A stretch of DNA of 47,788 bases from Candidatus Scatonaster coprocaballi (lineage in GTDB: Bacteria; Bacillota; Clostridia; Saccharofermentanales; Saccharofermentanaceae): assembly GCA_018064475.1 (NCBI GenBank), contig JAGHVD010000011.1:1-47788 (forward strand). The letters are read 5' to 3'. Positions 28,796-33,853 of the stretch are shown here, piece by piece. The notes below the pieces were generated by a model, which was not told the origin of the DNA, searched no databases, and saw nothing but the letters and a program-made list of their open reading frames with translations. The stretch's first letter is position 1. Each line of letters opens with the position of its first letter. The position numbers and the translations under genes were made by a program.

Positions 28796-29791
28796 TTAGT
28801 TATTCTGAGCCTGTACAGCTGTGATTGCGATTACGCCAACGATATCCTTGGCAGAGCAGCCACGGGACAGGTCGTTAACCGGCTTTGCAATACCCTGGCA
28901 CATTGGGCCGTAAGCTTCTGCCTTGCCGAGTCTCTGAACCAGCTTGTAACCAATGTTACCAGCGTCGAGGTCAGGGAAGATCAGGACATTTGCCTTACCA
29001 GCAACCTTGCTGTCCGGTGCCTTGCTAGCGCCGATGGAAGGAACCATTGCAGCGTCAGCCTGGAGCTCACCGTCGATTGCGAATTCAGGATACTGTTCCT
29101 TAGCGATCTTGGTAGCTTCTACAACCTTGGTTACGTCGTCGTGTTTTGCGGAACCCATGGAAGAGTGAGAAAGCAGTGCAACGATTGGCTCTTTGCCAAC
29201 GAGCTGCTTGAAGGATGCAGCAGAAGAACCAGCGATTGCAGCGAGTTCTTCCGGATTCGGGTTCTGAACGAGACCGCAGTCACCGAATACGAATACACCG
29301 TCTTCACCGTACTCGCAATCCGGAACTACCATTACGAAGAAAGCAGATACGAGCTTGGTGCCCGGAGCTGTCTTGATGATCTGGAGGGACGGACGAAGTG
29401 TGTTCGCTGTAGAGTGGCAAGCACCGGAAACGATACCGTCACCGTCACCCATCTTTACCATCATGCAAGCGTAGTACATATAGTCAGAAAGAAGTGTCTT
29501 CGTAGCTTCTTCCTTTGTCATGCCCTTAGCCTTACGCAGTTCAACGAAGCCATCGATATAAGCCTCTGTCTTCTCGTAAGTATTCGGGTTAATGATAGTA
29601 GCCTTGGAAATATCCAGACCTTCGCTGTTTGCCTTGACCTCTTCATCTGTACCGATGATGATCAGGTTTGCGATATCCTCAGCGAGGATCTCTGCAGCCG
29701 CCTCAAATGTTCTTCTGTCCATAGACTCAGGAAGAATGACGGTCTTCTTGTTGCTCTTTGCTTTTGCTTTAATCTCATCAATAAATGCCAT
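28796..29791 (-). CDS. pta: Phosphate acetyltransferase
   Basis: Pta turns acetyl-CoA and phosphate into acetyl phosphate, which AckA then uses. The 331-residue protein is the short class I form without the N-terminal DRTGG domain. Family segments seen are KKTVILPESMDRRTFEAA, VSGACHSTANTLRPSLQIIK, VVPDCEYGEDGVFVFGDCG, ALLSHSSMGSAKHD, ELQADAAMVPSIG and ANVLIFPDLDAGNIGYKL. The start is the ATG at 29791 after a modest AAGGCAGG site. A strong promoter lies about 90 bases upstream. Confidence 0.97.
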   Translation of the reverse strand: MAFIDEIKAKAKSNKKTVILPESMDRRTFEAAAEILAEDIANLIIIGTDEEVKANSEGLDISKATIINPNTYEKTEAYIDGFVELRKAKGMTKEEATKTLLSDYMYYACMMVKMGDGDGIVSGACHSTANTLRPSLQIIKTAPGTKLVSAFFVMVVPDCEYGEDGVFVFGDCGLVQNPNPEELAAIAGSSAASFKQLVGKEPIVALLSHSSMGSAKHDDVTKVVEATKIAKEQYPEFAIDGELQADAAMVPSIGASKAPDSKVAGKANVLIFPDLDAGNIGYKLVQRLGKAEAYGPMCQGIAKPVNDLSRGCSAKDIVGVIAITAVQAQNN

Positions 29792-29879: not shown

Positions 29880-29909
29880 ATTATAAACCTTATTAGAGGG
29901 GATTTTCAA
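29880..29909 (-). promoter_or_regulatory. Promoter of pta-ackA
   Basis: The minus strand has TTGAAA (29904-29909), an 18-bp spacer and a perfect TATAAT (29880-29885). The leader is about 82 bases. Confidence 0.8.
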
Positions 29910-29918
29910 TTACAAATC

Positions 29919-29937
29919 ACATTCCCAACAGGAATGT
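29919..29937 (-). terminator. Small hairpin between repeat array and pta promoter
   Basis: ACATTCC/GGAATGT (7 bp, 5-base loop) is followed on the minus strand by GATTTGTAATTGAAAA. It may weakly end transcripts that pass through the repeat array. Confidence 0.35.
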
Positions 29938-30086
29938 AAGGCCAAAATTCGCATTCCCTCCATTCTAGCCGTACTTCACGATGATCTTGTACGGCCAGAA
30001 ACCGCATTCCGTCCATCCTAGCCGTACTTCACGATGACCCTGTACGGCCAAAAACCGCATTCCACCTATTCTAGCCGTACTTCACA
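29938..30086. repeat. 53-bp tandem repeat array with internal dyads
   Basis: The anchor CGCATTCC occurs at 29950, 30003 and 30056, giving a constant period of 53 bp. Two full units, a third cut off after CCGTACTTCAC and a partial leading copy (TGTAAGGCCAAAATT) make almost three copies. Each full unit holds an inverted repeat GCCGTAC ... GTACGGC with a 14-base loop (29968-29995 in the first). The array fills the gap between the nuclease gene stop and the pta promoter. On the minus strand a 31-codon frame (30060 to 29965) runs through two units in different frames; I regard it as chance. Confidence 0.9.
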
Positions 30087-30884
30087 CTACACCCCGAATA
30101 ATTCCCGCATCATCTGCCGAATCTCCCGCATATTGAGTTCACTTCCCTTGCCCTCAAACGTAGCAATCAAATTCACGCCTAGATACACACCGTTCCGACG
30201 ATACAAATCGAGTTTTCGGAAACAAGCCTCCCTATACTCTGGATCATCCATCAGGCCAAAATGTTCATGGAAAACGTAGCGACGGTGTCTCACGTCCAGC
30301 AATGTAAAATCCGGATACCTCACCGTTCCATCACGAAGTGTCAGTTTACTCTCATATCGGTATGGAATATCGAGTTCATAGTATAGGTTCGCAAACATGA
30401 GTTCACTCTTCGACCTCACTTTCTCGCCCCGTTTCGTCTCATACAATTTCTGATCACTAAAAGCCGGATTCATATCGTAGGTTTGCTTCATCCATCGCTC
30501 TACATACAATTTCGGACTAAGAAGAATCGGTGAGACTAGTTTCTGACGTTGCTTACTCAACATTTCGTATACATTATTGGGGTTCTTATGTTCGAGCGTC
30601 TGTATGTATGTTGCAATTAATCGAAGTTCCTTGTCTATCCGCCGAATGAGCCGATCAGCATAGTCCTTGCAAACCAGTTTCTCCGCCAAAGGCCGCTCTT
30701 CCTTCTTCATGTATCGGTCATATACCTGAATAGAATCCTGGTAAAGATAGTACTGGTCTTTTCCTCGGCGCGTCGAAACCCTTACCTTTCCTTCCGGCGC
30801 ACCTTCCAGCATCTTCTCCGCCTTCGCCCGCGCCGCAAGCAACATCTCCCGCCGCGCACACAATTCTTCCATCAAAGCATCCAT
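30087..30884 (-). CDS. PD-(D/E)XK nuclease-like protein
   Basis: The 265-residue protein has a basic, helical N-terminal half (about 1-110) with a likely coiled coil, and a C-terminal domain that looks like a restriction-endonuclease fold. Candidate active-site residues are Glu161 in VRSKSELMFAN, Asp192 in RYPDFTLLD and Glu207-His208 in VFHEHFGLMDD, where the usual ExK is replaced by ExH-like spacing. I set the start at the ATG at 30884, preceded by GGAGGCAGGTT; an earlier in-frame ATG at 30965 lies in the promoter leader. Similar proteins of unknown role are common in Clostridia. Whether it acts on DNA or RNA is not known. It has its own promoter. Confidence 0.7.
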   Translation of the reverse strand: MDALMEELCARREMLLAARAKAEKMLEGAPEGKVRVSTRRGKDQYYLYQDSIQVYDRYMKKEERPLAEKLVCKDYADRLIRRIDKELRLIATYIQTLEHKNPNNVYEMLSKQRQKLVSPILLSPKLYVERWMKQTYDMNPAFSDQKLYETKRGEKVRSKSELMFANLYYELDIPYRYESKLTLRDGTVRYPDFTLLDVRHRRYVFHEHFGLMDDPEYREACFRKLDLYRRNGVYLGVNLIATFEGKGSELNMREIRQMMRELFGV

Positions 30885-31126: not shown

Positions 31127-33853
31127 TTAACTTGGTTCCTCACCGAACAGCTTATTCTTCGCACTACGGATAACAATGTTCTCCACCTTCTGCCGCGAAT
31201 AATCGTCGCCGAGGTTGAAGTCCGACCAGTCATTGTGGTGGATCGAGAACTGCACGATCAGCTTGTCGCCGGCGCTCAACTTCCCCGACCCAAAACCACT
31301 CATCGTGCAGACCGTGTCCGCGCCGTTTTTCTTCTCGGCCTTGGCAAAAGCACCCGCCACACTTTCAATCGCGCTATATTGTCCGTTCTTTGCGCTCACG
31401 GCACTGTGATAACAGTCGAACGTGAGTGCGCCATCCTTCTCGTTGGTGAAATAATAATCGATCGTCAATTCGCCCAGATTGATGGCTTCCTGACCTACAT
31501 TCTCAATTGTCATGTTTCCTGCAATCGCATTGCCGCTTCCACTCATCGTGTACTCGATTGAGACCGCCACCTTGCCATTGGCACCACTGTTTCCAGCACC
31601 GCCCTGGTTTCCACCCTGGCTCGGCGCGTTTCCACCTTGACTGCCGCCTTGACTGCCACCTTGGCTACCGCCCTGTGAAGCCCCCGGCGTCGGCGTGGTG
31701 ATCACTTCGGCCCCAGGACCGCCCGGCACCTGACCAAATACCAGCACACCATTCTCGAAGAGGCATGCGGATCCCGTCGCCGCCGCATCCGAAGGCAGAC
31801 CAGTGATCCGGAACTGCACTTCCTTCTTGTATTGACTCTGACCACCCGGATAGCACGAATACTCCGCAAGAAGAACCTGCACACAGGCCGTATCGCCGCT
31901 CGCATCGAGGATCGTCAACGAAGCCACGTCCTGACCATAGGAAGAGGACACCGAAAGATCCGACGCCTTCTTTCCCGATGGAACCGTGAAATAATAGCGC
32001 AGTTCCAAGTTCTTCGGCGCACGAGCCGGCCAACCGGTCATGTTATATGTCAGCGCCTTGATCTCGAGGAAGTCCGCACCCGACGCATTGACCGAAGTCT
32101 CCACGCGATACTCTTCGCCCACCGCTTCGCAGGCACCAAATCCCGTCAAAGTCTGACCGTGATAACGCGTATAGAGCTTCGCCATGAGTCCCGTAAAACC
32201 AGCGTTATAGTCACAAGCCACTTCGTTGGCACAATAGTCACTGACCACATCCGTATATCCATCCGAAGCATCCGGTCCACCCACCAGCGCACCGACGAGA
32301 ATATGTCGGGACGCTCCCGGCTCGTTCATGTTGTCGCAATAAGAACCCTGCGCCGTACGATGATGCGGATTCACAGGATAGGAATCCCCAAATCCAATCT
32401 GATACGAGAACCCCGTATCGCCCAGCGCATAGTTCGCCTGCGACACGGCAAAATCCCAGTACACATCTTTCTTCGAAGCCGTACAGACTTCACTCTCACT
32501 ATAGACCGCCGCCACGAATGACGTCGTCGTAGCATAACGCAGCGAACCCCAACTATCCAGCCAAGCAAGGCCCTTGGGGGTATAGGTGATCCGCTCTCCG
32601 GAAGCCGTACCGCAGCTCCAGAAGTCTAGGTGCTTCTCCACCGCAGAAGTATAGGTCTGCTCGCCCGTCTCCTGCGCAAGCAACACGGCCGCACCAATGT
32701 GCACATCGTCCCAGCAGAACGCCCAGTTGAAGTCCTGATTTGCTTTCGGATAGTACTCCTTCGCCTTCGAAAGATAGTTCGCATCGCCCGTTGCACGATA
32801 GAGCCAGACCGCCGCCCAAGAAAGCTCGTCGTAGTACCCGCTCCAGGAATCGTAGAAACCATTGGCAGCCGTGTATCCCGCATCGCTCTTATATTTATCG
32901 GCAAAAGCATAGAGTGCCATAGCATGTTGTAAGCATTCTTCGCTGAAGGCCGGATCCTCCGTCTTGAAGAGCATGCTACAGATCGCCAATGACGCCGCGG
33001 TCTCGCCGGTGACGGCTGAGCCCGGATGCTGCGCATCTACGAAGTATGAAGGGCGATCCATCCGATACTCCACACACTCCGCAGCGCCCCACCAACCATG
33101 GTCGGCCGAGCCATTGCCCACCTGATAGAAATACTTCTCCGGAGAAGGATGACACTTGATGAAATACTCGTTGGCCCAGCGGATATTAGCGAGCGCATAA
33201 GAGAGTTGACCGCTCTGCTCATAGGCATCCCGATCCTCATAGATGGACCATCCCAGGACTGATGCAGAATACGCCATCGGCAGGTTGAACTTCACATTGT
33301 CACCCGCGTCGAACCATCCGCCGGTCAGATCCACACCCGCGTCGGAACCGTCCTTCAGACAGGAGTCCCCACGCCAGTTGCACCTTGTATCCTCCGGCAG
33401 ATCACCGGAACGCTGAAGCTCATAGAAAAGCACCGACTTCTGCAAGGCCTCGCCGTAGTTATACTTGCCGGTGCCCTCTACACCTTCCACACCATCGCCC
33501 TGCATAGTGCCATGACTCCCTTTGTTCACCGGAATCTCGCCTGAACTTGGGACAGTTGTTTCCGTGGGAATCGAAGACTCCGCCGTTGAAGAAGGGTCTT
33601 CACTTTCTGAAGACGCAGAAGTAGTCGGCACGGCGTCTGTCGTCGCTTCGGATGAAGTCGACGAATGAGAAAGATTCGCACCGTCCTCTGTTTCTGGAAT
33701 CACCGCTTCGGAAACCGAAGGATCGGCAGGATCCTCCGCGCTCTTCTGATGCTTCTCGATGGTGTTCTTGACCGCAAAGACCGACACACCGATCAGTGTC
33801 ACAGACACCAGAATAATTCCTATAACAACCAGAAGACGTGCTTTGTTCTTCAT
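31127..33853 (-). CDS. Glycoside hydrolase family 9 cellulase with two CBM3 modules
   Basis: The 908-residue enzyme should hydrolyse cellulose outside the cell. It has an N-terminal signal/anchor helix (about 8-28), a Ser/Thr/Glu-rich linker, the GH9 catalytic domain (about 130-575) with DLTGGWFDAGDNVKFNLPM, NPHHRTAQG and NEVACDYNAGFTG (catalytic Asp and Glu), then a CBM3c-like module (about 590-735), a SQGG/NQGG repeat linker and a final CBM3. This is the 'theme B' layout of processive endoglucanases. No dockerin or sorting signal is present. I set the start at the ATG at 33853, 6 bases after GAGG, rather than the ATG at 33865; the preceding helicase stop at 33855 sits next to it, so translation is coupled. 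Confidence 0.93.
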   Translation of the reverse strand: MKNKARLLVVIGIILVSVTLIGVSVFAVKNTIEKHQKSAEDPADPSVSEAVIPETEDGANLSHSSTSSEATTDAVPTTSASSESEDPSSTAESSIPTETTVPSSGEIPVNKGSHGTMQGDGVEGVEGTGKYNYGEALQKSVLFYELQRSGDLPEDTRCNWRGDSCLKDGSDAGVDLTGGWFDAGDNVKFNLPMAYSASVLGWSIYEDRDAYEQSGQLSYALANIRWANEYFIKCHPSPEKYFYQVGNGSADHGWWGAAECVEYRMDRPSYFVDAQHPGSAVTGETAASLAICSMLFKTEDPAFSEECLQHAMALYAFADKYKSDAGYTAANGFYDSWSGYYDELSWAAVWLYRATGDANYLSKAKEYYPKANQDFNWAFCWDDVHIGAAVLLAQETGEQTYTSAVEKHLDFWSCGTASGERITYTPKGLAWLDSWGSLRYATTTSFVAAVYSESEVCTASKKDVYWDFAVSQANYALGDTGFSYQIGFGDSYPVNPHHRTAQGSYCDNMNEPGASRHILVGALVGGPDASDGYTDVVSDYCANEVACDYNAGFTGLMAKLYTRYHGQTLTGFGACEAVGEEYRVETSVNASGADFLEIKALTYNMTGWPARAPKNLELRYYFTVPSGKKASDLSVSSSYGQDVASLTILDASGDTACVQVLLAEYSCYPGGQSQYKKEVQFRITGLPSDAAATGSACLFENGVLVFGQVPGGPGAEVITTPTPGASQGGSQGGSQGGSQGGNAPSQGGNQGGAGNSGANGKVAVSIEYTMSGSGNAIAGNMTIENVGQEAINLGELTIDYYFTNEKDGALTFDCYHSAVSAKNGQYSAIESVAGAFAKAEKKNGADTVCTMSGFGSGKLSAGDKLIVQFSIHHNDWSDFNLGDDYSRQKVENIVIRSAKNKLFGEEPS

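Follow-up and report, generated by a model that had tools for sequence, protein, structure and literature searches.

Helically phased half-site arrays beside a family of PD-(D/E)XK-like nuclease genes in Clostridia

The array in the window

What could a short array of inverted repeats do directly behind the gene of a nuclease-like protein? This question was raised by a stretch of 47,788 nucleotides (the window; contig JAGHVD010000011.1 of assembly GCA_018064475.1) from Candidatus Scatonaster coprocaballi. Half-site matching and repeat finding placed a phased array with a 53-bp period, without assigned strand, at 29936..30080. Read directly from the sequence, it consists of six half-sites in which GTACGGC alternates with its reverse complement GCCGTAC, starting at 29936, 29989 and 30042 on the plus strand and at 29968, 30021 and 30074 on the minus strand. 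Half-site 1 reads GTAAGGC, with one mismatch, and half-sites 2 to 6 are exact. The start-to-start gaps are 32, 21, 32, 21 and 32 bp, giving the period of 53. Tandem Repeats Finder returned 29935-30085 with period 53, 2.8 copies and 0 indels. The window holds 15 copies of GTACGGC in total, whereas 100 shuffles averaged 2.9 and never reached 15. Five of these copies sit inside the array, which was the only spot with at least five copies of a 7-mer and its reverse complement when the window was scanned in 300-base tiles. The repeat finding, the half-site positions and the shuffle comparison verified the 53-bp tandem array proposed in the initial annotation. The intact stems described there were found for five of the six half-sites, but the remaining one carries the GTAAGGC mismatch, and the suggested hairpin GCCGTAC/GTACGGC uses just one of the two possible pairings of neighboring half-sites. 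Three further minus-strand copies, at 32352, 32478 and 32604, lie at exact 126-bp steps within a GH9-like gene and are probably a chance feature of the coding sequence.

The array adjoins the stop codon (TAG, 30087-30089) of the nuclease-like gene, which encodes 265 aa on the minus strand (30087..30884; ATG at 30884 with AGGAGG upstream, as read from the sequence). The last half-site ends seven bases before this stop codon, a contact that the initial annotation gave no more closely than as downstream of the gene. At the far end of the array lies a weak terminator-like hairpin (29917..29939, minus strand; one found, with a mean of 1.1 in shuffles). Just outside the array we noted a promoter-like site, TTGAAA-18-TATAAT (29880..29909, minus strand; one found, with a mean of 2.0 in shuffles). 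Across the array from the nuclease gene, it precedes a minus-strand gene at 28796..29791 that we take to be pta, encoding phosphate acetyltransferase. The nuclease copy of the window sits among metabolic genes.

Association of the arrays with a nuclease family

The family of the nuclease is PD-(D/E)XK-like, unnamed and multicopy; it is present in all 23 genomes of the genus, usually several times per genome. It was also found in 29 of 391 genomes from other families of the class at E 1e-20, and in named Butyrivibrio and Lachnospira genomes. Ninety loci were collected in the genus, of which one was excluded because the fetched stretch contained no stop codon, leaving 89; gene starts were taken from the longest open reading frame. 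Another 80 loci came from named genomes. Of these, 44 repeated genus loci, their records being mostly of ruminant origin, and were dropped, and 36, mostly from Lachnospiraceae, were kept. A class-wide set of 28 loci may overlap these 36. Most of the genomes compared are metagenome assemblies, the window's own genome consists of 105 contigs, and repeats break assemblies. Seven of the 89 genus genes contain one internal stop (L046 on contig C83 of the window's own genome G000, L051, L056, L063, L074, L088 and L091); all seven retain a one-sided array, and they were omitted from the conservation count. No relative of the nuclease was confirmed in viral contigs, where an exact pattern search for the array also found none. 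The nuclease matched three unannotated phage-labelled faecal contigs, in one case with 28.5% identity along 91% of the query. Partial matches, mainly to the nuclease domain, were obtained in nine plasmids.

Arrays were detected in each flank as exact copies of a 7-mer and its reverse complement, with a threshold of five or more. An array was located within 600 bp of the nuclease gene at 79 of the 89 genus loci, and the other ten showed no clear array. When 400 bp were examined on both sides, 67 of 81 genus loci had an array on one side and none (0/81) had one on both; the same count gave 7 of 39 for control genes, two of which lie beside a nuclease, and 3 of 474 for window tiles. Outside the genus, arrays were present at 24 of the 36 named loci and absent from 12, and in the class-wide set they were present at 18 and absent from ten. 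Five loci outside the genus (L120, L125, L208, L210 and L218) reached the threshold on both sides. The array may lie on either side of the gene and is upstream of it in many members. The half-sites mostly alternate in orientation across the family arrays, while the words differ between branches of the nuclease family. A nuclease copy found in four species at 88-93% identity (L016-L019) has kept the word GATAGAA upstream; this lineage looks vertically kept, unlike the fast-changing others.

Helical phasing of the half-sites

The unit periods clustered near 53, 63, 74, 84, 95 and 106 bp, which are multiples of 10.5 bp. Among the 79 genus arrays, 48 had periods of 51-55 bp, 22 of 61-64, three of 72-73, one of 81, one of 96 and four of 104-106; a period near 106 could also represent two units of 53. 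The 24 arrays outside the genus had periods of 53-54, 63, 73-75, 84-86 and 94-96 bp. The nucleases formed 43 clusters at 55% identity, and the median periods of 39 clusters followed a common step of 10.55 bp with a phase near zero (R 0.82); under either null, none of 20,000 random draws was as high. The 502 plus-minus-plus triplets of half-sites gave the same picture, with spans of 52-54 (262), 61-64 (88), 73-75 (67), 83-86 (9) and 93-96 bp (14). Only seven triplets fell between the peaks at 56-60 or 65-70 bp, and none at 76-82 or 87-92. A further 23 triplets spanned 35-45 bp, many of them probably involving extra one-mismatch sites.

Units inside one array also jumped by about 10 or 20 bp, with lengths of 64, 74 and 94 in L163 and 53, 63, 73 and 84 in L155. 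Overall, 77 of the 502 triplets departed by more than 3 bp from the mode of their own array, and these departures followed steps of 10.25-10.5 bp (R about 0.6). The half-sites and lengths were kept while the spacers drifted, often to near chance likeness: the median identity of spacers in successive units was 0.43, and 54 of 93 arrays were below 0.45. The lengths of protein residues 1-150 and 31-100 did not clearly track the number of turns, and unit spacing set by protein length was rejected on this basis. The steps of 10.5 bp point away from RNA hairpins and to a protein whose sites line one face of the DNA double helix; the binding of a protein to the repeats, one of the possibilities raised in the initial annotation, is probably correct.

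Conservation of the repeats as hairpins or RNA, which had also been suggested, found no backing. Changes in the half-sites showed no wobble or compensation signal: those keeping a G-U pair numbered 41 against 53 others, without excess of keeping, and complementary double changes numbered four against eight non-complementary ones, each counted once. In downstream arrays, G-U-breaking transitions outnumbered keeping ones by 20 to 8, an excess compatible with transcription of the opposite strand, while upstream arrays gave 33 and 33. Rfam gave no match at the window array. These counts and the Rfam result do not support an RNA hairpin function.

Predicted structure of the nuclease

The protein consists of an N-terminal helix, strands at residues 31-58, a long helix and a C-terminal PD-(D/E)XK-like domain. 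Residues are numbered from the D coded by 30881-30879. The AF2 model had a mean pLDDT of 91, and together with the alignment of the acidic triad it revealed the PD-(D/E)XK core fold. E160, D191 and E206 are invariant in 24 of 24 aligned members. At the third catalytic position, E206-H207 is followed by F, L, C or another residue; the classical lysine of (D/E)XK is absent there, so nuclease activity is not assured. The predicted C-terminal domain superimposed on Bax1 (8gy8; Z 8.2, rmsd 3.2, 98 aligned residues), TnsA (1f1z; Z 7.6, rmsd 3.4, 115 aligned) and Vsr (1cw0; Z 6.5, rmsd 3.9, 103 aligned), although such Z values may indicate no more than a common arrangement.

The window protein matched no Pfam family at E 0.001, and at the thresholds applied, searches of Pfam, NCBIfam and PDB gave the nuclease no relative by sequence. 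PADLOC matched its C-terminus to PDC-S68 (E 2e-27) and HEAT_CxxC_PDDEXK (E 2e-5), the former over profile positions 1092-1219 of 1221 only. The C-terminal domain also matches large AAA ATPase, RecD-like or RecQ genes on plasmids of many phyla. For the N-terminus, Foldseek found no named DNA-binding fold at E 0.001, and VIA-align returned generic coiled coils. We had presumed a likeness to the three-stranded sheets of integrase arm-binding or AP2-type domains, which was not confirmed.

Covariation of residues 31-58 with the word

The word was shared in all 26 nuclease pairs that are at least 80% identical, in 13 of 55 pairs at 60-80% identity, and rarely in more distant pairs. The similarity of words tracked residues 31-58, predicted to form the strands between the two helices and coded at 30708..30791 on the minus strand by computation from the reading frame. 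Given the rest of the protein, the partial rank correlation was 0.79 (36 disjoint pairs, n 35), and none of 20,000 permutations was as high. Five other segments had partial r values of -0.24 to 0.23. The pairs were chosen to be disjoint, and the family tree was not an explicit term in the statistic. As word and protein are chromosomal neighbors, part of their joint divergence is shared history; because the signal is specific to one segment, we argue that shared history is not the whole cause. The L084 and L087 nucleases are 76% identical and have different words, TGAGCTAA and TGGTCTAA. Two nucleases of one genome shared a word in only 1 of 126 pairs, and such paralogues are at most 56% identical, which argues against self-copying of the nuclease.

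Arrays elsewhere in the genome

A second array in the window's own genome, on contig C14, has the same word and the same 53-bp period with different spacers and without a nuclease. It lies between what we take to be pflA and a STAS-domain gene, in the opposite sense relative to its neighbors. For the nuclease on C49, arrays with its word and the same geometry were found twice on C50, on C47 and at the end of C61, where one of the C50 arrays probably continues over an assembly gap. The C102 nuclease likewise has its word repeated in such arrays on C43, C80 and C73. No nuclease is next to any of the arrays on these six contigs. The search for orphan arrays in this genome covered three words, and all orphan arrays that we read are intergenic, in convergent, divergent and codirectional settings. 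A few arrays of this genome are beside central fermentation genes, namely G000:C47:24397-24759 (L232), C43:1667-1955 (L233) and those on C14 and in the window; by likeness, the genes are presumably a ptb-like gene with a kinase, pyruvate kinase, pflA and pta.

The dispersal of repeats in intergenic DNA predicted from the window is therefore borne out within this genome by the C14 array. At the level of the genus, a search of DNA from this genome and 58 relatives found the 53-bp unit in only 1 of the 59 genomes, the window's own, so the idea of a single REP-like family spread in the genus was rejected. Two genus-mates hold one 7-mer pair each, which looks like chance. The search for copies had been proposed as a check on conserved structure; the unit is indeed not confined to the window, but compensatory stem changes are rare.

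Array positions varied within the genus. The surroundings of pta contained arrays in only 2 of 23 genomes, those with the nuclease there, and orphan arrays occurred near pflA in 4 of 19. The pflA orphan arrays of G002 and G004 carry the word of one of their own nucleases, and that of G003 had no clear match among the fetched nucleases. A conserved host site was rejected, as array positions at neither gene are conserved in the genus. Two nuclease genes were also seen near pflA, in two other species, one with a 73-bp array (G018:C37, L247/L086) and one without a clear array (G013:C19, L244/L050).

Proposed function and alternatives

The association of gene and array, the helical phasing, the covariation of residues 31-58 with the word and the same-word arrays elsewhere in the genome were all obtained by computation. 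On these grounds we consider it probable that the neighboring nuclease docks on the array, which would be its cognate platform of double-stranded DNA, and that the purpose is REPIN-like. We infer that the nuclease binds the array and cuts it. The N-terminal stranded module, residues 31-58, would read a word of about 7-10 bp. Copies of the nuclease would occupy the alternating half-sites, with sites of the same orientation on the same helix face, 5 to 10 whole turns apart. Nicking or cutting of its own sites by the nuclease could allow arrays to lengthen, to shorten and to arise in intergenic DNA that had none. In this way, each nuclease and its arrays might be a small population resident in the genome, matched to a single word and kept apart from its paralogues. 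As to purpose, we judge REPIN-like spread or remodelling of the arrays the most likely, followed by sequestration or defence.

In the latter case the array would store the nuclease in a harmless and ordered state until a disturbance of the DNA, such as a phage might cause, sets it free, and the pair would act as a guard or abortive-infection device. The PADLOC candidates matched by the C-terminal domain, the fast diversification of the words and the broken nuclease genes (7/89) are consistent with this. However, PDC-S68 is matched only at the last ~130 of 1221 positions, the window copy is placed among metabolic genes, no relative was confirmed in viral contigs, and a defence model does not need orphan arrays far from the gene. 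We therefore regard this as unlikely, though less so than the other alternatives. Arrays serving as nucleoid or insulator sites, with the protein as a structural DNA-binding component, would explain why the orphan arrays read are all intergenic and why half-sites are kept while spacers drift. Such a host chromosome function is improbable, since array positions vary (2/23 at pta, 4/19 at pflA) and the E-D-E triad, invariant in 24/24, is unexpected in a purely structural protein.

An RNA role is more doubtful still. The array could be co-transcribed with the nuclease gene, its repeated hairpins acting as RNA antitoxin or guides, as in type III toxin-antitoxin or TIGR-like systems. The window array does lie downstream of the gene and before the weak terminator-like hairpin, so that it may be in the transcript, and spacers differ between units in many arrays. 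Against this stand the 10.5-bp steps in unit length, the missing wobble or compensation signal, the position upstream of the gene in many members, the opposite sense of the orphan C14 array and the lack of an Rfam match at the window array. Least credible is the view that the repeats are neutral, of a tandem or MITE-like kind, and have no partner protein. Slippage can generate tandem arrays, and units of one array are often similar, but the gene association, the one-side exclusivity in the genus, the helical steps and the covariation with residues 31-58 all contradict this explanation.

The docking of the nuclease on its own arrays would be of interest for several reasons. Whole-turn phasing across a protein family, between and within arrays, is a strong footprint of ordered protein-DNA assembly. 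The family also supplies dozens of natural combinations of a 28-residue reader with its DNA word, by which a recognition code could be put directly to the test. Why hosts keep several nucleases and arrays is the open question of RAYT/REPIN, posed here in an unrelated protein.

Comparison with known systems

In the open-access PMC literature, a scope with few subscription journals and no preprints, we found no description of such a nuclease-array system. CRISPR arrays, with their identical direct repeats and unique spacers, differ from these arrays, in which half-sites alternate in orientation and spacers are partly repeated in many cases. In type III toxin-antitoxin systems, an RNA repeat array upstream of an endoribonuclease gene is processed to the antitoxin; here the array occurs on either side of the gene, and no RNA-type covariation was seen. 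With Bax1, TnsA and Vsr the family has the predicted fold of the C-terminal domain in common. The likeness to PDC-S68 is also in the C-terminal nuclease domain, but those models are about 1200 positions long, whereas the window protein consists of this domain plus its own reader module and does not match them over the full length.

Passages on TIGR-Tas (PMC12045711) describe a single effector gene with a Nop domain and an array up- or downstream, whose edge and loop repeats and two spacers are processed to 36-nt RNAs. One effector gene with an array on either side, and a repeat and spacing fixed within a locus and differing between loci, are features that recur here. In contrast to TIGR arrays, the half-sites alternate in orientation, the unit is 51-106 bp and the period follows the DNA helix. 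The N-terminal coiled coil aligned with TasH (Z 7.8, 63 residues, rmsd 2.2) no better than with generic coiled coils, with which it was tied. At E 1, a level at which distant relatives could escape, the Pfam matches shown for 24 members included no Nop family.

The closest resemblance in layout is to RAYT/REPIN, where palindromic repeats flank the gene of the enzyme to which they belong and occur as inverted doublets, tandem clusters and copies dispersed between genes. Sections of PMC3116915 report that a genome can contain several single-copy enzymes, all distinct, and that repeats specific to each of them lie nearby and dispersed; these sections and parts of PMC3733652 describe REP and BIME elements as inverted doublets, clusters and tandem arrays, with a repeat class for each enzyme. 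The repeats of the window family likewise adjoin the enzyme gene and are dispersed in intergenic DNA as inverted doublets. In the same parts of these papers, RAYTs are HUH tyrosine transposases whose cleavage substrates are single-stranded REPs tagged with GTAG (PMC3116915, PMC3733652). Here, instead, we found a PD-(D/E)XK-like protein with a separate reader module, member-specific words and unit steps of helical turns. No transposase family was among the 25 Pfam families shown for 24 nuclease members at E 1, and no common GTAG (or CGTC) tag was seen by eye in the half-site consensus of 103 arrays. Since protein, repeat and geometry do not match, we do not file the nuclease arrays as a member of RAYT/REPIN despite the layout. 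Taken together, they may represent a new genome-resident system of Clostridia, a tentative assignment to which we give nearly even chances. Each genome would contain several sequence-specific, mutually insulated nucleases, and every one of them would combine a short reader module with dispersed arrays of its own, phased to the helix, that it would load in order and remodel. Such a system would be a double-stranded DNA counterpart of RAYT/REPIN whose words change rapidly and are naturally diversified.
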